Shown: one piece after another, positions 36,277 through 50,267 of the stretch | Layout of the letters: each line of letters starts with the position of its first letter | Numbering within the stretch: position 1 is the stretch's first letter | Origin: an uncultured Geobacter sp. | Lineage (GTDB): Bacteria; Desulfobacterota; Desulfuromonadia; Geobacterales; CAIOGM01 | Assembly: GCA_903857795.1 (NCBI GenBank) | Contig: CAIOGM010000173.1 | Span: forward strand, 1 to 50,896 | Length of the DNA: 50,896 nucleotides | Reading direction: 5' to 3' | Notes under the pieces: generated by a model | Seen by the model: the letters and a program-made list of their open reading frames with translations, nothing else | Told to the model about the DNA's origin: nothing | Database searches by the model: none | Position numbers and translations under genes: made by a program

Positions 36277-37077
36277 TCAGATGAAGAGTACGGCCGAGCT
36301 CTCTTGACTGTTGTCCTTCAGCCGGACGCCGCGGATGGTCAGATCATTTGAGGTGAAGTAGAGGCTGTCGCTGGTTTCAGCCGCAAGCACCTTCTCGACG
36401 AATGCAGCCAGTTCGGGGGAGAATGCCGTCTCCATCGGCTCCCCGATGAGGCCGTGGCGGGGAGTCTTGAGCCAGGCGGTGGCCGCATCGTTGCAGAGGA
36501 GGATGACCCGGTCCGAACCGACGCAGACGATACCGGGGCCCAGGTTGTCCAGGATCTCCTGGGAACTGATGAGCGCCTTGCTGAAGCGCCGGACAAAGGC
36601 CGTCCGGTCGGCGACGACCTCCTGCAGGCGATCGTTAATGCCGTTCAAGAGGGAGTTCTCAGTCTGCAGCTCCTTGAGCCGGTGGCTCTTCTCCCAGGCG
36701 GAGGTAAACTGCTCGATGCCTTTGGCCACGGTGCTCTTCAGCTGGTCGTCGTCCCACGGTTTGGCGATGTACTTGTAAATCCGGCCGCTCCGCACCGCTT
36801 CCACCAGGACCGGACGGTCCGCGTGTCCCGACAGGATGATCCTGACGGTCTCGGGGCTCCGGGCGTAGACCTCTTTCAGGAAATCAACGCCGTTGAGACC
36901 CGGCATCCGGTAGTCGGAAATCACCACCCGGATCGGCGCCTCCGCCAGCCGCTCCAGCCCCTCTTCTCCGGATTCGGCCATCAGTATTTCATGGGCGCCC
37001 TGCTTGAAGAGTCGCTTCAGTGACCGCAGGATTGCCGGTTCGTCGTCCACCAGGAGGATTGCTCCCTGTCTATCCAT
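36277..37077 (-). CDS. Response regulator with PAS-like output (REC-PAS)
   Basis: The 266-residue protein has a receiver (about residues 6-125; VVISDYRMPGLNG with phospho-Asp, YIAKPWDDDQL with the switch Lys), a coiled-coil segment (RLKELQTENSLLNGINDRL) and a PAS-like domain (about 180-255; LGPGIVCVGSDRVILLCND). There is no enzymatic output, so it likely works by protein interaction or as a phosphate shuttle for the neighbouring kinase. The ATG at 37077 overlaps the kinase stop by 8 bp, with GGAGGA inside the kinase's last codons. The longer in-frame start at 37155 lies within the kinase gene and is rejected. Confidence 0.9.
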   Translation of the reverse strand: MDRQGAILLVDDEPAILRSLKRLFKQGAHEILMAESGEEGLERLAEAPIRVVISDYRMPGLNGVDFLKEVYARSPETVRIILSGHADRPVLVEAVRSGRIYKYIAKPWDDDQLKSTVAKGIEQFTSAWEKSHRLKELQTENSLLNGINDRLQEVVADRTAFVRRFSKALISSQEILDNLGPGIVCVGSDRVILLCNDAATAWLKTPRHGLIGEPMETAFSPELAAFVEKVLAAETSDSLYFTSNDLTIRGVRLKDNSQESSAVLFI

Positions 37078-39040
37078 GATTTTCCTCCGAATGTCTCGGC
37101 AATTTGATGGTGAAGGTCGTGCCACTGCTGGAACTCTCCACGAGAATTTCCCCATGGTGCTTCTTGATGATGTCGTAAGAGATGCTTAAGCCCAGCCCGG
37201 TCCCCTTGCCCACCGCCTTGGTGGTGAAAAACGGTTCGAAGATCCGATCCCGGAGCTCCTGGGGGATGCCGTGCCCGGTGTCGGTGATGGAGACCGAGAC
37301 GGAGGTCTCGTCATGCCAGCTCCGGAGGGTGATGGTCCCCGGCGGAGTAATGGCGTGGCAGGCGTTGAGCAGCAGGTTCATGAAAACCTGGTTCAGCTGT
37401 CCGGGGTGACAGAGTATGGGGGGGAGCGGCTCGAGCTCCCTGACTATGGTCGCCACGTACTTGAGTTCGTTGCTGACGATGTTGAGGGCGCTCTCCAGGC
37501 ACGAGGTGAGGTCGCTCATCTCATACTCCGGGGTATCGATGCGGGAGAAGCTCTTCAGGTCGCGGACGATCTGGGCCACCCGGTTGGCGCCGTCCAGCGA
37601 CTCTTTTATCAGATCGCCACCGTCGTCCAGGATATAGGGCACGTCAAGCTCATTTTCCGTCGCCGCCAGTTCCTGCCGCAGCTCCTCGGACGCCGTCTGC
37701 TCCAGGGCCTTCCGCTGCGCCGAGATGAAGCTTGCCAGGGCGACAAAGTAGCCGGTAAGGGTTCTCAGGTTGCTGGAGATGAACCCCATGGGGTTGTTGA
37801 TCTCATGGGCCACTCCGGCCGCCAATTGGCCGATGGAGGCGAGCTTTTCGTTCTGGAGGATGATCAGCTCTTTTTCCCGGCTCTTCTCGATCTCTTTCTG
37901 GACCCGCTGTTCCAGGGTCCGGTTCAGCTGCGCCAGCACCTCCGACTGCTCAACCAGGGCCGTTTCGGCCTGCTGCCGTACGGCGACTTCATTTTGCAGG
38001 AGCCGGGTCTGCTCCGCCGCTTCCTGTTCCCGGAGGGCGGCCTGTTCCAGGTTAGTCGTGAGGATGGTGTTTCTGGTCATGAGGATGAAGACCAGAAAGA
38101 TTGCGGTCAGGATGGCCACCGCCAGGCCGGCGGTGGCGGCCAGGATCCGGCGGGGATCTCCCACGTCATATTTCCCCCCCGGGATGAACGTGATGATGGA
38201 GAGGGGGGTCTCGGGGATGTCGCTTCGGGCCGCCAGGAGATACCCTTTGGCGCTGCCGCCACTCTTGAGCTGCGTCACCACGCCGGGAGGGAGGCGGGGG
38301 GGGGCAGCACGCAGGGATGGGGAGAGAAGCGCCTGATGTGACGCCGGCAGAAGGAGGTAGCGCTCATCCCTCACCAGGGCGATCAGGTCGGGGGACCCTT
38401 CCCGGTTGCCGATGAAGTGGTCATAGACCAGGGAAAGGGGGATTATCCCGAGGATCTGACCGACGACCTTCTCCTTGAAGATGCAGGGGACCGAGATGAC
38501 GATCCGGGCTGCTCCCTCCTCCGTATCGGTGAGATAGAATGTCTGGGCTTCCCGGCGGACGTAGCGTGACCAGCGGGGGTGGGTGGCGGTGACATCGACG
38601 CCGCTCAGGGCGAGCGGTTTCCCCCGAGGGGGGAGGAACAGTAGCCAGGTATAGACCGGGTGTCGCTCCAGGCGGCTCTTCTGCTGAAACGTGTCAAACC
38701 GGTCCTGGACGGCCGAGAGACTGGCGCTGAGGCCGTACTCAAGAGACATCCCCAGGGCCTGATTCTCGAAATAGATAGCGATCTCACGGGCTTGGGAGAG
38801 CTCCTTGAGGCTGTTCGTCTGGGCGCTGAAAAAAAAGCTGGAGGCGCCGGCCCTCCGGTCGATCTCCTGGGTTATCAGCTGCTGCTGGGATTTCTGGAGC
38901 GCCACCTGCGCCCGGTACTGGGCCACCACCAGATAGCCCACATACCCGATCAGCATGATGCACGCCGCCGTCGCCAGGATCTTGCTTAAGGACGAGATGG
39001 AATTATTGATACGCGGTATCGGCGTCCCTGTCATACTCAT
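37070..39040 (-). CDS. Membrane sensor histidine kinase
   Basis: The roughly 656-residue kinase has TM1 (about residues 18-38; [19 protein letters not shown]), a periplasmic sensor region of about 260 residues that looks like a dCache-type domain, TM2 (about 303-328), a coiled coil, and a kinase core. H-box is [15 protein letters not shown]-box [18 protein letters not shown]-boxes DTGHGIPQ and GTGLGLSIS. The kinase half is closely similar to that at 29401, so the two share recent ancestry while the sensors differ. It overlaps the REC-PAS gene by 8 bp and is its likely partner. The start is uncertain; ATG 39040 is favoured over 39124 because TM1 then sits normally. Confidence 0.9.
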
Positions 39041-39186
39041 GAAAAGTGCCTGGCTGGTTACGGAAAAGTGATTGCTGTGGCGCACTCCCCTCGGGGGAGC
39101 TGTGCCAGACTGGAACAATAACACGATCTGAACAGGCTCGTAAAGCTGATCTTGCCCCGAGAAGGGGGACTTTCACGTTCGGTAGT

Positions 39187-42100
39187 TCAGAACTGCTCGA
39201 AGCACCCCTCCAGAACATCTCCCTCCGGATTGTGCCCCACCAGCTTCCGTGCTCTGCCGGCAGAAGCGTTGGCAAGAGTGGCCGCCGGTTTCCTGCTGCT
39301 CTTGACGGTGAGTCGCGGCGCCCGTCGGGCGGCAACGGGGTGAGAGACGTCGTCGCCGGTCCGGAAGAAGGCCACGGTGGCCTGGAGCTGCTCCGCCTGG
39401 GAGGAGAGCTCCTCGGAGGTGGAGGCCATCTCTTCGGCGGCCGAGGCGTTCTGCTGGATCACCTGGTCCAGCTGCTGGATCGCCTTGTTGATCTGTCCCG
39501 CCCCGGAGTCCTGTTCCCTGCTGGCGGCGTTGATCTCCTGTACCAGCTGTGCCGTCTTTCGGATCTCCGGCAGAATCGAGGCGAGCATCATCCCGGCCCG
39601 TTCCGCCACCTCCACGCTGGAGGTGGAGAGTCCGGAGATCTCCTTGGCCGCTGCCTGGCTCCGTTCCGCCAGTTTGCGAACCTCCGAGGCGACCACGGCG
39701 AACCCCTTGCCGTGCTCTCCGGCCCTGGCCGCCTCGATGGCCGCGTTCAACGCCAGCATATTGGTCTGCCGGGCGATCTCCTCCACGATGGTGATCTTCC
39801 CCGCGATCTCCCGCATGGCGGTCACGGTCTCGGCAACCGCCTTCCCCCCCCCTTGGGCGTCATTCGCCACCTGATTGGCGACCTTGTTGGTCTGTTGGGC
39901 GTTGTCGGCGTTCTGCCGGATATTGGCGGTCATCTGCTCCATGCTGGAGGAGGCCTCTTCGGCGGCTGCAGCCTGTTCCGAGGCGCCGCGGGAGAGCTGC
40001 TCGGCCCCGGAGCTCATCTCCTGGGAGCCGGCGGCCACGTTATCGGCTGCCGACTTGACTTCATTCACCACGGAGGTGAGCTGACGGACCATGGCGATGA
40101 GCGCTTGCATCAGCTCGTCATTGGCGGAGCGCTCCTTCAACTCCACCATCAGGTTGCCGGTGGCCACCTCCTTGGCGATCCCCGTGATGTTCTCCAGTGC
40201 AGCGGTCAGGTGGCCGACCTCGCCGTAGATCGTTTCGTAGTTCGACCGGATGATCGCGGTCTCGGCGTCCCCCTGTTCGGCCCGGGGAGAGAAGGCGGTG
40301 TTCCCCAGCGCCAACTGTTGCAGGCAGTCGGTGAGCTTACCGGATTCGGCGGCCTGATACGCCAGCAGTTTATCGGCGGTTCTGGCCTGCTGCTTGGCCT
40401 GGGTCTGGTCGGTTACCGTCTCAAAGGCGCCGATGACTCTCCCCTCCTGATCCTTGAGGGGGATTCCGGAGTAGGCGATCTCCAGATGGTGGCCGCCGGG
40501 GTGGGCGTCGGTCTCGCTGAAGGCGATCTGCCCTTCCTTGATGGCCCTGGCGCAGGCGCACCGTTCGGTGTGGCAGTCGGAGGTCTTGAAGTGGTCGTAA
40601 CAGTTGGTCCCCAGGAGCGCCTCCGGGGTCGTATCTCCGGCCATGGCGCCGGCCCGATTCATGTAGTTGATCTTCAACTCCCGGTCCACGATCATGACCG
40701 GCTGCGGAAGCGCATCCAGGTGCCCCACCAGGGTGCCGATGGTCGAATTGACCCCGGTGACGATCTTCCTGAAATCGCCGTGATGCCGTTCGGCCGGGGC
40801 GCGGGTCAGGAGTCGCCCTTCCGTGGCCGATTGGGCCAGGAGATTGATATCGGTGATGACCGCCCCCACCGCATCGATGCAGGTGTTGAGGCTGTTCTTG
40901 ATCTCGTTGAAGTCGCCGTGGTACTCCTCGGTGATCCTGGGGGGGATATCCCCCTTGGAGATCCGGTCCATGTACTCGGCGGCGACGGTCATCGGCTGGA
41001 TCAGTTTGTCGACGATGGCGTTGACTCCGGCGATCATCCGGCTGTTGTAGCCTTGATACTTGGAGATATCGGCCCGGACATGGAGCTGCCCCGAGATGGC
41101 GGCGGTGCTGAGCATCTCCAGATCGGCCCCCCGCATCCTGACGGTGGTCAGCACGTTGTTGATCCCCTCTTTGATCCGCTGGAACTCCCCGTGGTACTCG
41201 GCGGTCACATCATCGGGAGCGATGCCGTGACCGAACTTCTCCAGGGCGTCCACGGCCACGTTGAGGGGGTTGATGACCGCATCCAGCGTCTCGTTCATCC
41301 CGGCGACGATGATCCGGAAATCTCCCCGGTGTTTGCCGGCGTCGGCCCTGCTGTTCAGGTCTCCGTCCACGGCCGCTTGGGCCAGCTGACCGGCGTCGGC
41401 GATGAGGAGGTTGATGGCGTCGCTGCAGCCGTTGAGGTTGTTCTTGATGGCGTTGTAATCGCCGTGGTAGACGGCGGTGATGCGGGGGGGGATATCGCCG
41501 TCGGCGATCCGGGCCACGTAGGCGGCGGACATGTTCAGCGGTTCGATGATGGCGTCCAGGGTGTCGTTGATCCCCCGGAGCAGTTTGCGGTAGACCCCGT
41601 TGGTTCGGTCGGGGTGGGACCGCTCGCTGAGTCGTCCGTCACGCCCGGCGTGAATGACCACCCCCACCTCGTCCACCAGGATGGAGATCTGTTCGATGCA
41701 GGTGTTCAGGTTGGTCTTGATCTCGTTGAAATCGCCGTGGTACGTGGCGGTTATCTTGGGGGGGATGTCCCCCTTGGAGATCCGGTCCACGTACTCGGCT
41801 GCCATGTTCAGCGGCCCGGTGACCGCGTCCAGGGTCTCGTTGATGCCGATGATGATGTTTCTGAATTCACCCTTGTGTTTCGTCGGATCGGCCCTGACCG
41901 ACAGATTCCCCAGGGCCACCGCCTGAGCCAGCAGCCTGGTCTCCGCGACCTGGGCGCGGATGGAGTGCTGCATGACCTGCATGGAGCTCAGCATGGTGCT
42001 CAGTTCGTTCTTCCGTTTCACCGTGATCTCCATGTCAAGATCGCCGTCAGCCATGGACTGCAGGTATCTGATGGCCCGTTGAATGGGATGATCGATGGAC

Positions 42101-42288
42101 CAGATGTTCAACGCGCCGAACATGAGCCCCAGGATGATGGAGACGACCATGACGACGGTGTGCAGCCGTGCTATATGGGACGATTCAGCCAGCCCCACGG
42201 CGACGATGCAGAGGCTGTAGCAGATACAGAGCAGGGCGAGGCGGTATTTTACGGAAAAGTCCAGGTAGAAATTGACCAGGGTACTCAT
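39187..42288 (-). CDS. Giant poly-HAMP chemoreceptor with Cys-rich PAS domain
   Basis: The 1033-residue receptor has two N-terminal membrane helices (about residues 14-32 and 42-62) with almost no periplasmic domain, a HAMP, and then four recurring units of about 92 residues. Each unit contains a version of [29 protein letters not shown] and [13 protein letters not shown] domain (about 535-655) carries clustered cysteines ([18 protein letters not shown]). The methyl-accepting core has the tip [20 protein letters not shown] (near 855). The last residues, CFEQF, resemble a CheR/CheB-docking pentapeptide. It probably senses a cytosolic or redox cue. It is third gene of the sigma-54 operon, with AAGGAGA before the ATG. 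Confidence 0.92.
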
Positions 42289-42334: not shown

Positions 42335-42700
42335 TTAACCGAGTAGTCTCTTTACCACGGCGAGGAGCTGCTCCTGCTGGAACGGCTTCACGATCCATCC
42401 GGTGGCGCCGGCCGCCTTCCCCTCCTGCTTCTTGGCGTCCTGGGACTCGGTGGTCAGCATGACGATGGGGATGAAGCGGCAGGACGGCAGCGCCCGGGCC
42501 CCCTTGATCATACCGATACCGTCCAGAACCGGCATGTTCAGGTCGGTGATGATCATCTCCACCTTCCGGTTTCCCAGCAGTTCCAGGGCTTCTTTGCCGT
42601 CCGCGGCCTCCAGGACATCGTATCCCTGTTGCTGCAGCGTATAGCTCACCAGCTGGCGAACGGATTTGGAATCATCGACGGTCAAGACTGTTTTAGCCAT
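42335..42700 (-). CDS. cheY: CheY-like single-domain response regulator
   Basis: The 121-residue protein is a bare receiver: acidic pair in [11 protein letters not shown], phospho-Asp in [13 protein letters not shown] (near residue 54), Thr in MLTTES (near 84) and Lys in WIVKPFQQ (near 106). It should carry the phosphoryl signal from a CheA kinase not encoded in this window. The ATG at 42700 follows an AGGAGG that lies inside the last codons of the upstream small gene, with an 8-bp overlap. It is followed 46 bp later by the giant receptor gene. The slightly earlier GTG (42709) sits within the ribosome site and is rejected. Confidence 0.94.
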
Positions 42701-42956
42701 GATTACCACCTCCTGACAGTGGATTTCTCGGCGGCTCTCCCTGCAGGCTCATATATCTCTTGATCCCGCCGTCAAGGTTTTCGGCGATGCCGGCAAACTG
42801 TTTCAAATCGACTCCTCCCACCAGACTCAGCTCCTCTTCGCTCAGACCGAAACCCTCTTCCCTGCAGACGGTTCGCAGGGATTTACCTGCCCGCCCGCGA
42901 AACGAATCATCGGTAAGCAGTCGTCCTAGAACTTTTTCCACGGCTTCCTGTGACAT
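42693..42956 (-). CDS. Nitrile-hydratase-leader-like small protein (NHLP clan, Os1348-like)
   Basis: The 87-residue protein has MSQEAVEKVLGRLLTDDSF, the start typical of NHLP/Nif11-type leader proteins. SEEELSLVGGVDLKQFAGIA near residues 38-57 is the expected second helix. Such proteins are usually precursors or leader domains of ribosomally made modified peptides. Here the C-terminus ([15 protein letters not shown]) has no double-glycine/cysteine core and no modifying enzyme is near, so it may be a repurposed helper of the chemosensory system. GGAGG precedes the ATG. It is the first gene after the sigma-54 promoter and overlaps cheY by 8 bp. Family assignment rests on remembered consensus. 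Confidence 0.65.
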   Translation of the reverse strand: MSQEAVEKVLGRLLTDDSFRGRAGKSLRTVCREEGFGLSEEELSLVGGVDLKQFAGIAENLDGGIKRYMSLQGEPPRNPLSGGGNHG

Positions 42957-43012
42957 GGCGACCTCCGTAATGTGCCGTTCGGGTACAGCCTGTTCCCCTA
43001 CTCCTGCTTTAC

Positions 43013-43028
43013 AGCAGGAACCAAGCCA
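43013..43028 (-). promoter_or_regulatory. Sigma-54 promoter (-24/-12) of the small protein-cheY-receptor operon
   Basis: On the minus strand this reads TGGCTTGGTTCCTGCT. The consensus is TGGCAC-N5-TTGCT; GG and GC are exactly 12 bp apart and 9 of 11 informative bases agree. The predicted start is about 45 bp before the first ATG (42956). The gene immediately upstream encodes an NtrC-type sigma-54 activator. Confidence 0.65.
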
Positions 43029-43092
43029 ATCCGGAGAGTCACCAGATAACAGTTAGTTACGTGTAGCCAGGCAGCGGCCGCTGCTCCCTGTG

Positions 43093-43123
43093 GGGACAGA
43101 GTGTCCCTGTCGGGCACACTCTG
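43093..43123. promoter_or_regulatory. Nested dyads, candidate enhancer site for the NtrC-type activator
   Basis: GGGACA-GAG-TGTCCC (43093-43107) overlaps a larger dyad of CAGAGTGT (43097-43104) and ACACTCTG (43116-43123). The centre is about 80 bp upstream of the -24 element, a usual distance for sigma-54 activator binding sites. It lies in the 219-bp gap between the NtrC-type gene and the small protein gene. Confidence 0.55.
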
Positions 43124-43175: not shown

Positions 43176-44555
43176 CTACTCTTCGGCGGAACTGCGGTAG
43201 AAGTGCTTCCTGCCGATCTTGAGAAGTTTGGCTGCCTTGGACTTGTTCCCCAGGCAGCGCTGGAGAGTCATGCCAAGGATCTGTTCGGTAAGCGCCTCAA
43301 GGGAGAGCTCCCCTTCGGAGAGCGACAGGGTGTAGGTCACCATTCCTGCTTTCACTGCTCCCACCTCTCCCGGAGGGGGGCCGCCGGCGTCGATCCCCAG
43401 ATGGGAGGGGCGGATCAGCTCTCCGTCGGAGAGAATTGCCGCCCGTTCCAGGCGGTTGCGGAGCTCCCGCACATTCCCCGGCCATCCGTAGCTCTGCATG
43501 ACCTCCATGGCTTTCAGGGAGATACCGGGAATCCTCTTCCCCAGGTGGCTGCGCAACTGGGCGATGATATGGTCGCAGAGGAGCGGGATGTCCCCTTTCC
43601 GGTCGCGCAGGGGGGGGATCTGCAGCGGGAAGACGTTGATGCGGTGGTACAGGTCCTCGCGGAAGAGTCCCGTGGCGACCATCTCCACCAGGTTGCGGTT
43701 GGTGGCGGCGATGATCCGGCAGTTGGCGGGAATGGGGGTGTTGCTGCCGACCTTCTCGAAGACTCGCTCCTGGAGAACCCGGAGCAGTTTTGCCTGGAGC
43801 GTCAGGGGCATGTCCCCGATCTCATCCAGCAGCAGCGTCCCCCCCCGGGCCAGTCCCAGCTTCCCCTCCCGGTCGTGGTCTGCGCCGGTGAAGGCCCCCC
43901 TGACGTGACCGAACAGCTCGCTCTCCAGCAGATGCTCGGGGATCGCGGCGCAGTTGAGGGCGACAAAACCGGTGGGGAGGCCGTTACCGGCGAAATGGAT
44001 GGCGCGCGCCAGCACCTCCTTGCCGGCGCCGCTCTCGCCGTAGATAATCACGGTGGTCTGGCAGGCGGAGGTCACCTTTGCGGCGCGTTCCAGCAGCTCC
44101 TTCATCTCCGGGTCGACGGTGACGATGCTCTGAAAGGTAAACTGATCCCGCAGGAGTCCGCGGATCTGGGCGTTCTCCCTGATCACCTGGTGATAGTCCA
44201 GGGCGCGCTGCACCGAGAGGCGGATATGGAGGGGGTCGCACGGTTTTTCCAGGTAGTCGTAGGCGCCGTGGCGCATGGCTTCCACCACGCTCTCGATGCT
44301 GCCGTGGGCCGTGACGACGATGATGGGGATCGCGCCGAACTCCTCACGTACCCGTTCCATCAGCTGGATCCCGGTCATCTCCGGCATGAGCAGGTCCGTG
44401 AGGATCAGGTCTACCGGAGTGCTCCTGAGGAGCTCCAGCGCCTGCGGGCCGCCGGACGCGCAGAGCGCCGGGAAACCGAGTTGTTCCAGCCGGCGCTCCA
44501 GCGTCCGGAGAGAGACGGCGTCGTCGTCGACGATGAGTATGGTGGGAAAGGCCAT
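43176..44555 (-). CDS. NtrC-type sigma-54-dependent response regulator
   Basis: The 459-residue protein starts at 44555 and has a receiver (about residues 4-118; LILTDLLMPEMTG), a AAA+ core (about 140-370; Walker A GESGAGKE, sigma-54 contact loop RGAFTGA, Walker B GGTLLLDEIGD, R-finger region LFREDLYHRINVF) and a Fis-type HTH (CLGNKSKAAKLLKIGRKHFY). It should activate sigma-54 promoters when phosphorylated. It is the last gene of the cheW-cheR-cheB operon (40 bp after cheB) and the next promoter downstream is a sigma-54 one with a dyad, so it probably controls the small protein-cheY-receptor operon. Confidence 0.93.
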   Translation of the reverse strand: MAFPTILIVDDDAVSLRTLERRLEQLGFPALCASGGPQALELLRSTPVDLILTDLLMPEMTGIQLMERVREEFGAIPIIVVTAHGSIESVVEAMRHGAYDYLEKPCDPLHIRLSVQRALDYHQVIRENAQIRGLLRDQFTFQSIVTVDPEMKELLERAAKVTSACQTTVIIYGESGAGKEVLARAIHFAGNGLPTGFVALNCAAIPEHLLESELFGHVRGAFTGADHDREGKLGLARGGTLLLDEIGDMPLTLQAKLLRVLQERVFEKVGSNTPIPANCRIIAATNRNLVEMVATGLFREDLYHRINVFPLQIPPLRDRKGDIPLLCDHIIAQLRSHLGKRIPGISLKAMEVMQSYGWPGNVRELRNRLERAAILSDGELIRPSHLGIDAGGPPPGEVGAVKAGMVTYTLSLSEGELSLEALTEQILGMTLQRCLGNKSKAAKLLKIGRKHFYRSSAEE

Positions 44556-44595: not shown

Positions 44596-46508
<1,913 letters not shown>

Positions 46509-46568: not shown

Positions 46569-47069
46569 TCATTCATGCACTGTTTCCGGCAGCTCCTCGG
46601 CGATGGTGGTCAGCTCGTCCATGGTGAAGAGCTGGTCGATATCGAGGATGATGATGAACTGATCATTGACCTTTCCCATCCCCTTGATGAAGTCGGTCCG
46701 GAGCCGGATGCCGATCTTGGGGGCGGGTTCGATCTGCTCGGGGCCAAGTTCGAGGACCTCTTGCACCGAATCGGCCAGGGAGCCGAGGACCATGGTCTCC
46801 CCGTCGTGGTTGATCTCCATGACGATGATGCAGGTGTTGACGGTCCGCTCCGTAGGGGGAAGACCGAACTTCTGGCGCATATCCATGACCGGGACGACAC
46901 TGCCGCGCAGGTTGATCACCCCCCGCATATAGTCAGGGGTCTGAGGAACCTTGGTGATGGCGATGACGTCCAGGATCTCCCGGACTTTCGCCACATCAAC
47001 GGCAAAGAGCTCCTCCCCGAGTTTGAAGGAGAGATACTGGGTGGTTTCCGTGATGCCGGTTGTGCTCAT
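46569..47069 (-). CDS. cheW: Chemotaxis coupling protein CheW
   Basis: The 166-residue protein has the CheW fold: YLSFKLGEELFAVDVAKV (about residues 12-29), IREILDVIAITKVPQTPDYMRG (split), VINLRGSVVPVMDMRQKFGL (about 52-71) and a C-terminal strand region ending with FIIILDIDQLF. It links receptors to a CheA kinase, none of which is encoded in the window. The gene starts 24 bp after the 1057-residue receptor gene and 60 bp before cheR, with CAGGAGGGC near its ATG. Confidence 0.95.
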   Translation of the reverse strand: MSTTGITETTQYLSFKLGEELFAVDVAKVREILDVIAITKVPQTPDYMRGVINLRGSVVPVMDMRQKFGLPPTERTVNTCIIVMEINHDGETMVLGSLADSVQEVLELGPEQIEPAPKIGIRLRTDFIKGMGKVNDQFIIILDIDQLFTMDELTTIAEELPETVHE

Positions 47070-47093: not shown

Positions 47094-50000
47094 TTAGAAC
47101 TTCTCGAAGTGGTTGTCCAGGGGATCATCGCTCTCCATCTTCAGGTCATGCCCGCCGGCTCTCTTCACCCCGGAGTAGCCGATGGGCATGGAGTTGATCG
47201 GAGTGGGGGCCGGTTTCCTTGCAGGTTTCGCCATGATCTGCTTTGACCGGGCCATGGTCCGGCTGGGAAGAGTGGGGGCGCCCATGTCGCCGATCCGGAA
47301 GAAGGCCACGGTGGCCTGGAGCTGCTCGGCCTGGGAGGAGAGCTCCTCGGAGGTGGAGGCCATCTCCTCGGCTGCCGAGGCGTTCTGCTGGATCACCTGA
47401 TCCAGCTGCTGAATCGCCTTGTTGATCTGCTCGGCCCCGCTCTCCTGCTCCCGGCTTGCGGCGTTGATCTCCTGGACCAGCTCCGCGGTCTTCCGGATAT
47501 CCGGGACTATCCGGGCCAGCATCTCCCCGGCCCGCTCGGCAACCTCCACGCTGGAGGCGGAGAGACCGGAGATCTCCCGGGCCGCCGCCTGGCTCCGTTC
47601 CGCCAGCTTGCGCACCTCCGAGGCGACCACGGCGAACCCCTTGCCATGCTCCCCGGCTCGGGCCGCCTCGATGGCCGCGTTCAACGCCAGCATGTTGGTC
47701 TGCCGGGCGATCTCCTCGATGATGGTGATCTTCCCCGCGATCTCCCGCATGGCGGCCACGGTCTCGGCCACCGCCGCTCCGCCGGCGGTGGCGTCTTCCG
47801 CCGCCTTGTTGGCGATCTTGTCGGTCTGTTGGGCGTTGTCGTCGTTCTGCCGGATGTTGGAGGTCATCTGCTCCATGCTGGAGGAGGCCTGTTCGGCGGC
47901 GGCGGCCTGCTCCGAGGCCCCATGGGACATGTTCTCCGATCCGGAACTCATCTGCAGTGATCCGGCGGCTACGCTGTCGGCTGCCGTCTTCACCTCGCTC
48001 ACCACGGAGGTGAGCTGCCGGACCATGGTGATGAGCGCCTGCATCAGCTCGTCGTTGGCGGAGCGCTCCTTGAGATCCACCATCAGATTGCCGCCGGCCA
48101 CCTCCCGGGCGCCGGTGGTGATCCGGTTCAAGGCCCCAATGAGATCGTTGAGGTTGCTCTTGATGATGTTGTATTCGCCGAGGTACTGGACGGTAATGGG
48201 GGGAGGCATATCCCCCTTGGAGATGCGATCCACATAGTTTGCGGTGAGCATGAGCGGATCGACGATGTTGGTGACGGTGTCGTTAATCCCGGTCACCAGG
48301 GTGCGCCACCCCCCCACGAAGCGGTCGGCATCGGCCCTCCGGTCCAGGTCGCCGCTGGCGGCAGCCTTGATTATTGTGTCGCTCTCCGCCAGCAGGTCGG
48401 TCATCGTTTGGACCAGGGCGTTGAGATTGTTCTTGATGACGTTGTACTCGCCCCGGTAGTCGATGGTGATGGCGGGGGGGATGATCCCCTTGGCGACCTT
48501 GTCCACGTAATCGGCGGTGAGCATAAGCGGGGAGACGATGTTGGTGATGATGTCATTAATTCCGGTAACCAGCGTATGCCAGCCGCCGACGAAGAGAGAG
48601 GCGTCGGCCCGGCGATCCAGTTGACCGGCGGCAGCGGCCTTGATGATCGTGTCGGTCTCGACCTGCAGCTCGTTCATCATACTGACCACCGAATTGAGGC
48701 TGTTCTTGATGATGTTGTACTCCCCCTGGTAGTCGGTGCTGATGGCGGGGGGGATGATTCCCTGAGAGATCTTGTTCACATAGTCGGCGGTTACCATGAG
48801 CGGATCGACGATGTTGGTGACGGTAGTATTGATCCCCAGCACCAGCTGTCGCCAGCTCCCTACGAAGAGGTCCGCGTTGGCCCGTTCATCCAGCCGGCCG
48901 TCAGCGGCGGCCCGGACGACCCGGTTGGCCTCGGTCAGGAGGTTGTTCATGATGTCGATGCAGTTGTTCAGGTTGGACTTGATCTCGTTGAAGTCCCCCT
49001 GATAATTTTCGGTGATCCGGGGGGGGATATCCCCCTTGGAGATCCGGTCCACGTAGGTGGCCGCCATGTTGAGCGGTTCGATGACCGCATCCAGGGTCTC
49101 GTTGAAGCCGGTGACGACCTTCTGGTAGTCACCGCGATGTTTGGCGGCGTCGGCCCGTGCGGTCAATTTCCCGGCAATGGCTTGCTGAGCCAGGAGGTTG
49201 GCGTCGGTGACCAGGGCGTTGATGTTGTCGATGCAGTTGTTGAGGTTGAGTTTGATCTCGTTGAAATCCCCCTGGTACTGATCGGTGATCCTGGGGGGGA
49301 GGTCCCCCTTGGAGATCCGGTCCACGTATTCGGCCGCCATGTTCAAGGGGCCGATGACCGCATCCAGCGTCTCGTTGAAACCGACCACGATCTGCCGGAA
49401 GTCCCCCTGATGTCTGGAGACGTCGGCCCGGGTGGCCAGGTGTCCGGCCACGGCGGAGTCGGTGAGCATCCCGGCATCGGCGATGAGCCCCCTGATGGCC
49501 GAGACCATCCGTTCCATGGCCCCCTGGAGGATGCCGGTCTCGTCTTTGGCCGTGGAGTCCAGCAGCACATCCGTATCGCCGGCGGCGATCTTGTTGGCGG
49601 CAGCCACGCAGGCGGCCACCGGCCGGGTGATGCCGCGGGTGAGGATCCAGGCGATGAGCACTACCAGGAGCAGTGCTATTGTCATCAGCCCCAGGATCAG
49701 TTCGACCGCCAGGTCATAGGTGTCGCCGGCCAGCTTCCCCAGCCGCTCCACCTCCTTTACCTGACGGCTGTCCAGCTCTTCCACGGCGTCGAAGTAGGCG
49801 GTCTGAGCCTTCCTCATGTTCGCCAGCAGGTGGGCTGTCGCCTCCTCCTTCTTCCCCGCCTTGATCAGATCAAGGGCGATCTGCTGCTGCTCCCGGTAGG
49901 CGGCCCGCGTGTCGATAATGTTCTTCAGGAGTTTCTTCCCCGCCGGTTGTCTCACGATCTTGGCCAACTCATCCAGGTGTTTGTCGACGATCACTTTCGC

Positions 50001-50267
50001 CTCGCCGATCCGGGCCAGCTCCTTCTCCTTGATGGCCGGATCGTCGAAGAGGATTATGTTGCGCAGGGCGCGCGCCACCACGTTGATCTGTTTGTTGATG
50101 TCGTTGAGCATCAGCGTCTTGGGCCACTTGTCGGTGACCAGGTCTTCCACATCCACATCGATGGCCTTCAACCGGTTCATGGCGAAGAGCCCCAAGGTGA
50201 GCATGAGAATGAGGACAATCCCGAAGCCAAGACTCAAACGTGTGCCAATCTTCATGTTCTTCAGCAT
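47094..50267 (-). CDS. Giant poly-HAMP chemoreceptor with four-helix-bundle sensor
   Basis: The 1057-residue receptor has TM1 (about residues 12-32), a 4HB_MCP-type periplasmic domain (about 34-190), TM2 (about 192-212), HAMP, then five tandem units of about 92 residues (about 290-760). Each has a form of [27 protein letters not shown] and YQG(D/E)(F/Y)N.IK. The methyl-accepting core follows, with tip [20 protein letters not shown]. It ends in HFEKF, a likely CheR/CheB-docking pentapeptide. Units three to five form a subtype ([17 protein letters not shown]). It heads the visible cheW-cheR-cheB operon and follows another receptor gene by 53 bp. Confidence 0.93.

Follow-up and report, generated by a model that had tools for sequence, protein, structure and literature searches.

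The window, a stretch of 50,896 nucleotides from an uncultured Geobacter sp. (GenBank assembly GCA_903857795.1, contig CAIOGM010000173.1), contains a small gene that the ORF list places on the minus strand, from 42956 down to 42693. Its product is 87 aa long and has the N-terminus MSQEAVEKVLGRLLTD. The features of the locus are as follows:

37070..39124, minus strand: histidine kinase after the receptor (ORF and spacing)
39187..42288, minus strand: methyl-accepting chemotaxis-type receptor, 1033 aa (six HAMP_2 stretches, PAS, MCPsignal)
42335..42700, minus strand: CheY-like stand-alone receiver (Response_reg, 92.9 bits)
42693..42956, minus strand: Os1348-type NHLP-clan protein (ORF; NF038399; AlphaFold2 model; match to 6lk7)
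42961..42966, minus strand: ribosome-binding site GGAGGT (sequence)
42971..42987, minus strand: third dyad TGTACCCGAACGGCACA (10/12), which separates promoter and start codon and lies 25 bp past the -12 box
43013..43028, minus strand: sigma-54 promoter box TGGCTTGGTTCCTGCT, 56 bp before the ATG of the small gene
43082..43098, minus strand: TGTCCCCACAGGGAGCA, the proximal enhancer dyad (10/12), 70 bp upstream of the -24 box
43102..43118, minus strand: TGTGCCCGACAGGGACA, the distal enhancer dyad (11/12), 90 bp upstream of the -24 box
43176..44555, minus strand: NtrC-type sigma-54 response regulator (Pfam REC, Sigma54_activat, HTH_8)
44596..45657, minus strand: CheB, upstream of the regulator (ORF; named from sequence; matches homologues in other loci)
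45654..46508, minus strand: CheR (ORF; named from sequence)
46569..47069, minus strand: CheW (ORF; named from sequence; matches CheW-like genes in other loci)

The small protein consists of a helical domain (residues 1-67) and a disordered 20-residue tail, the coding part of which overlaps the start region of cheY. The cheY ATG lies at 42700 and the stop codon of the small gene ends at 42693, giving an overlap of 8 bp. The original prediction had described a small gene behind a sigma-54 site with an 8-bp overlap into cheY, and ORF, ribosome-binding site, box and coordinates bore out each of these elements; the strand, the role of the upstream regulator and the enhancer dyads were absent from it. 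No sigma-70 promoters or terminators were found near the small gene. In most pairs of close homologues dN/dS was 0.03-0.27, with a single pair at 0.46, and these mostly low values indicate that the protein is under purifying selection.

The regulator possesses a receiver, a sigma-54 AAA+ domain and a Fis-type HTH according to Pfam, as well as a GAFTGA loop in its translation; its start codon is likely the ATG at 44555. The histidine kinase is probably part of the same transcription unit as the receptor. Flanking genes encode CheW, CheR, CheB, the sigma-54 regulator, CheY, an MCP and a kinase; as had been claimed, no maturase, protease-transporter or core peptide was present nearby. The che cluster comprises CheW, CheR and CheB, and no CheA was seen within the window. 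Two receptors of the window are very long (39187-42288, 1033 aa; 47094-50267, 1057 aa) and carry many repeated HAMP-like stretches.

The small protein was assigned to the Os1348 family of the NHLP clan by an NCBIfam scan (NF038399, 57.8 bits, cut-off 40). This was the only match above its cut-off among the three families that the original prediction had named for a profile search: PF14407 (Franean1_4349) scored 41.7 bits in the Pfam scan, under its gathering cut-off of 48, and Nif11 gave no match at E<=10 in the Pfam or NCBIfam scans. Of ten other homologues, nine scored 38.5-90 bits against NF038399, the weak copy on contig C136 being without a score. A profile built from 22 homologues retrieved the Os1348 crystal structure 6lk7 (2.2e-6). 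The AlphaFold2 model, with a pLDDT of 84-90 across residues 1-60, showed four helices and a disordered tail, and resembled 6lk7 in Foldseek (probability 1.0, TMt 0.80) and by structural alignment (Z 9.8, 65 residues, 1.8 A; next family Z 4.5). Profile and fold thus uphold the predicted leader-type nature of the protein. Residues M1, S2, Q3, E7, G11, R12, T15, D16, G35, E42 and R67 were invariant among the homologues, and F19 and R20 were conserved as well. A weak structural likeness to the model was also seen in the C-terminal part of DesB (Z 4.5).

Os1348, or PosA, from Pseudomonas sp. Os17 (PDB 6lk7; NF038399) shares family, helical fold and small size with the window protein. It is a dimer in the crystal and, by analogy, the window protein probably is as well. 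Os1348 is itself a RiPP precursor (PMC7726476, PMC12636437) with modifying enzymes and efflux genes at its locus, whereas at the window locus, a sigma-54 signalling operon, core and maturases are both missing; the window branch therefore shares the fold of its namesake but not its use.

The homologue set comprised 74 proteins (about 75; 76 in some counts), mostly from Desulfuromonadia. Many loci were MAG contigs, and gene calls around the homologues were mechanical. The family was detected in 52 of 277 genomes of the class and in four of 395 genomes sampled across the whole phylum, all four within the class. Further carriers in a scan of species genomes were MAGs with the labels Nitrospirae, Hydrogenedentes and Chloroflexaceae, for which binning errors are possible. 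A culturable relative, Oryzomonas japonica Red96 (L147), has the locus too. The window's own genome carries three further copies, on contigs C115 (70% identical), C150 and C136 (weak). The closest of them, C115 (4710-4964), is flanked by a LuxR-type response regulator and an MCP, and has neither sigma-54 box nor dyads, making it the one clear own-genome exception to the regulon rule described below.

Across the set, an NtrC-type sigma-54 response regulator was recurrently found directly upstream of the homologue. It lay within 3.5 kb in 57 of 75 cases (56 of 74 in the smaller count), and on the same strand at <=700 bp in 49. The promoter signature was present for 51 of 74 homologues, and 69 of 74 had either a nearby regulator or the signature; for 13, including C150, the signature occurred without an adjacent regulator. 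All linked regulators (58 of 58), the window regulator among them, fell into a single clade with a support of 100 in a quick IQ-TREE analysis. Of the 23 further sigma-54 regulators in the window's genome, 21 fell outside it. The two exceptions inside the clade were the C136 regulator (the same gene as the linked one, at 3.3 kb) and C132:13518, a regulator next to which no NHLP gene lies. This latter regulator (C132:13518-14858, locus L180), read with internal stops, has a full promoter nonetheless and precedes a protein with a PEP-CTERM-like end.

The pairing of regulator and small gene was not strict. Clade regulators without the small gene were found at 38 sampled loci, many with the same promoter layout, and with the same kinds of outputs, which rules out a one-to-one relationship and shows that the small gene is not essential to the clade. 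On a FastTree phylogeny of 96 clade members (58 with the small gene, 38 without), presence and absence changed about 17 times, at least 12 of these changes being forced by well-supported branches. Since the same clade drives such genes without the small protein, the latter appears to be an optional accessory that was lost many times. Pairwise distances of NHLP proteins and regulators were correlated (Spearman 0.56, the largest of 1000 permutations reaching 0.16), a value from which species relatedness was not removed; this suggests old co-inheritance with repeated loss. Within the loci with MCP outputs (n = 10), neither the NHLP-regulator nor the NHLP-MCP correlation was significant.

A sigma-54 box scoring >=17 was located within 180 bp of the start codon in 83% of 76 homologues, compared to 8% of shuffles. 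Dyad analysis of these promoters yielded the enhancer consensus TGTCCC-N4/5-GGGACA, which we take to resemble an NtrC-type site, so that the adjacent regulator is the natural candidate for its binder. Two dyads occupy positions 86-92 and 66-73 bp before the -24 box, and a third lies 23-38 bp after the -12 box. With the offsets taken from these same promoters beforehand, all three dyads matched at >=9/12 in 59% of 63 promoters and in none of 1890 shuffles. The window matches all four positions, that is, the two upstream dyads, the sigma-54 box and the third dyad. The third dyad is not a mark of the small gene, as it was also present in promoters lacking it. A scan of the window's genome for perfect dyads returned the C136 promoter alone, this criterion being too strict for listing the regulon. 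Taken together, these patterns are very probably those of a regulon, as judged from sequence: a regulator clade, a three-dyad sigma-54 promoter, the small gene as the usual first gene, and variable sensory or surface genes after it.

Comparable arrangements have been described. PEP-CTERM genes are known to be preceded by a dedicated regulator box together with a sigma-54 site (PMC1569441); there, as here, an NtrC-type regulator, in that case of the PrsK/PrsR pair, is associated with a sigma-54 promoter before many targets. PrsR belongs to a different regulator family, the window regulator scoring 355.2 bits against its model TIGR02915 (cut-off 502.6), and the PrsK/PrsR account describes no NHLP protein (PMC1569441). 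In a 2008 account, sigma-54 promoters were predicted before Geobacter receptor genes (PMC2577667). The che/mcp operons treated there share the bacterial group and the sigma-54 control of receptor genes with the window; no regulator, dyad box or small NHLP protein is identified in the passages on them (PMC2577667).

The genes that follow the small gene were diverse. Among about 70 first downstream genes, about 18 encoded MCPs and 15 other two-component or chemotaxis proteins, the latter in one cluster. Further first genes encoded CheX, HD-GYP, SpoIIE-type (PP2C-type) phosphatase regulators, a XylR-like activator, TAT metallophosphoesterases, DUF3089 and lipase/esterase lipoproteins, TPS/ESPR adhesins, collagen-like proteins and DUF4347 proteins; kinases, too, were among the genes that follow. 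The original prediction had proposed a chemosensory accessory protein and a survey of cheY and receptor flanks. About half of the first downstream genes were indeed chemosensory or two-component; the rest encoded unrelated products such as exported enzymes, lipoproteins and adhesins. The small gene does head a sigma-54 operon with cheY and a receptor, but its constant partner is the regulator with its promoter. A chemosensory-only role was ruled out as too narrow, many outputs being non-chemosensory; receptors of the same kind are also found after this promoter at loci that lack the small protein.

We consider that the locus is best explained by an intracellular, core-less Os1348/NHLP protein in the operon of a dedicated NtrC-type regulator, with a putative feedback or adaptor role (probability about 0.5). 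That the small protein acts by feedback or as an adaptor on the regulator circuit is a tentative proposal, made because the regulator and the promoter are its sole constant partners while the outputs vary. The phosphorylated regulator would bind the two upstream TGTCCC-N4/5-GGGACA dyads and fire sigma-54 RNA polymerase. The dyad just past the start site may lower expression once occupancy is high and thus be autorepressive. The small protein, helical and probably dimeric as Os1348 is, would stay in the cytoplasm as a feedback element or adaptor on the regulator or its kinase and would not be processed into a peptide product; it may thereby tune how strongly the downstream output (here CheY, receptor and kinase) is made or used. 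Counter to a feedback role are the C115 paralogue, which lacks a sigma-54 site, and the many loci without the small gene.

Of the alternatives, the one that survives best is that the small protein works with the downstream products (receptor, CheY, kinase or exported enzymes), an adaptor or a chaperone being examples of such a role; in the window, this reading takes the form of a chemosensory accessory protein. We regard it as unlikely. Co-transcription, overlaps of 4-8 bp with the next gene in several loci, and the share of MCPs and other signalling proteins among the first downstream genes are in its favor. For the C115 paralogue, which retains an MCP neighbor without a sigma-54 regulator, a role linked to receptor or output is no less fitting than a feedback role. 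Against this, the downstream products share neither family nor compartment, and MCP and response-regulator genes of these kinds also stand behind this promoter where the small gene is absent.

Chance insertion, behind the promoter, of a neutral gene that spreads horizontally could account for the patchy distribution on the regulator tree (17 changes, 12 forced), but the small protein's distances are congruent with those of the regulator, it is under purifying selection, and the signature is retained at orphan loci. We therefore hold this explanation to be improbable.

By none of the criteria tested does the small protein qualify as a RiPP precursor. The tail after the domain was <=5 residues long in 43 of 76 homologues, and the median protein length was 71.5 aa, most family members ending at 68-73 residues. 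Tails were variable and often absent, cysteines were not conserved (the tail of the window copy has no Cys), and a GG within residues 41-70 occurred in just 3 of 76 homologues, leaving no conserved double-glycine cleavage site. The genome-wide search covered YcaO, MNIO, the NHLM ABC transporter and C39 peptidase: YcaO and MNIO were both counted at zero, and no NHLM transporter scored over the cut-off. Two weak C39 peptidase matches lay elsewhere in the genome, neither at an NHLP locus, and the downstream genes read at homologue loci included no maturase. A RiPP precursor was thus ruled out by the absent core, the absent cleavage site and the lack of YcaO, MNIO and NHLM. A precursor served by maturases in trans, or by maturases still unrecognized, would be in keeping with the precedent of Os1348, the 20-residue tail and LVGG (residues 45-48) of the window copy, and the two C39 matches; given the homologues' mostly short or missing, unconserved tails and the enzyme counts above, we judge it very improbable. 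The NHLP precursors of Haft et al. 2010 (PMC2887384) share the leader-domain homology with the window protein, but have a variable Cys/Ser/Thr-rich core after a GG, with maturases and transporters near, none of which were found here. NHLPs in species without known modifying enzymes had already been noted in that study. A missing profile match, or homologues confined to the vicinity of RiPP maturases with a conserved core, would have spoken against the original prediction; neither was observed.

Least probable of all is a translational or regulatory leader ORF in which ribosome passage couples the next gene and the protein itself is irrelevant: the 8-bp overlap with cheY and comparable overlaps elsewhere would suit it, but the protein is conserved across phyla with mostly low dN/dS, and the gap to the next gene spans -79 to over +200 bp.

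Returning to the small protein as a partner of the regulator, its history might be one of exaptation, a RiPP-leader fold having been taken over as the dedicated feedback regulator or adaptor of one NtrC-type regulator family. The corresponding signalling cassette could then combine the regulator and its three-dyad sigma-54 promoter with the leader-fold protein and an output gene that can be exchanged, a picture we put forward with reserve. If true, this would be the first non-biosynthetic role of the NHLP leader fold within the literature searched. In that literature, which left most subscription papers outside, we found neither NHLP proteins tied to sigma-54 regulators nor the terms 'NHLP clan', 'Os1348 family' and 'Franean1_4349'. 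Automatic annotation labels these proteins as RiPP peptides; in genome mining, every one of them would end up among the orphan natural-product precursors. The evidence points instead to a coherent signalling regulon, whose operator can be tested, whose regulator clade is defined and whose outputs can be swapped. Partner recognition by leader domains also becomes testable, as the fold bound by RiPP enzymes may bind a response regulator or kinase.

Two further loci were recorded among the homologues. A Chloroflexaceae MAG (L149:891-1109) encodes a core-less Os1348-type protein adjoining a TPR-like protein (90 bits to NF038399), a setting that suggests further non-RiPP contexts of the family. On one short contig (G259:C412:7-813), four partial NHLP matches follow one another in tandem; the domain may be repeated there, or the arrangement may be an artefact of assembly.
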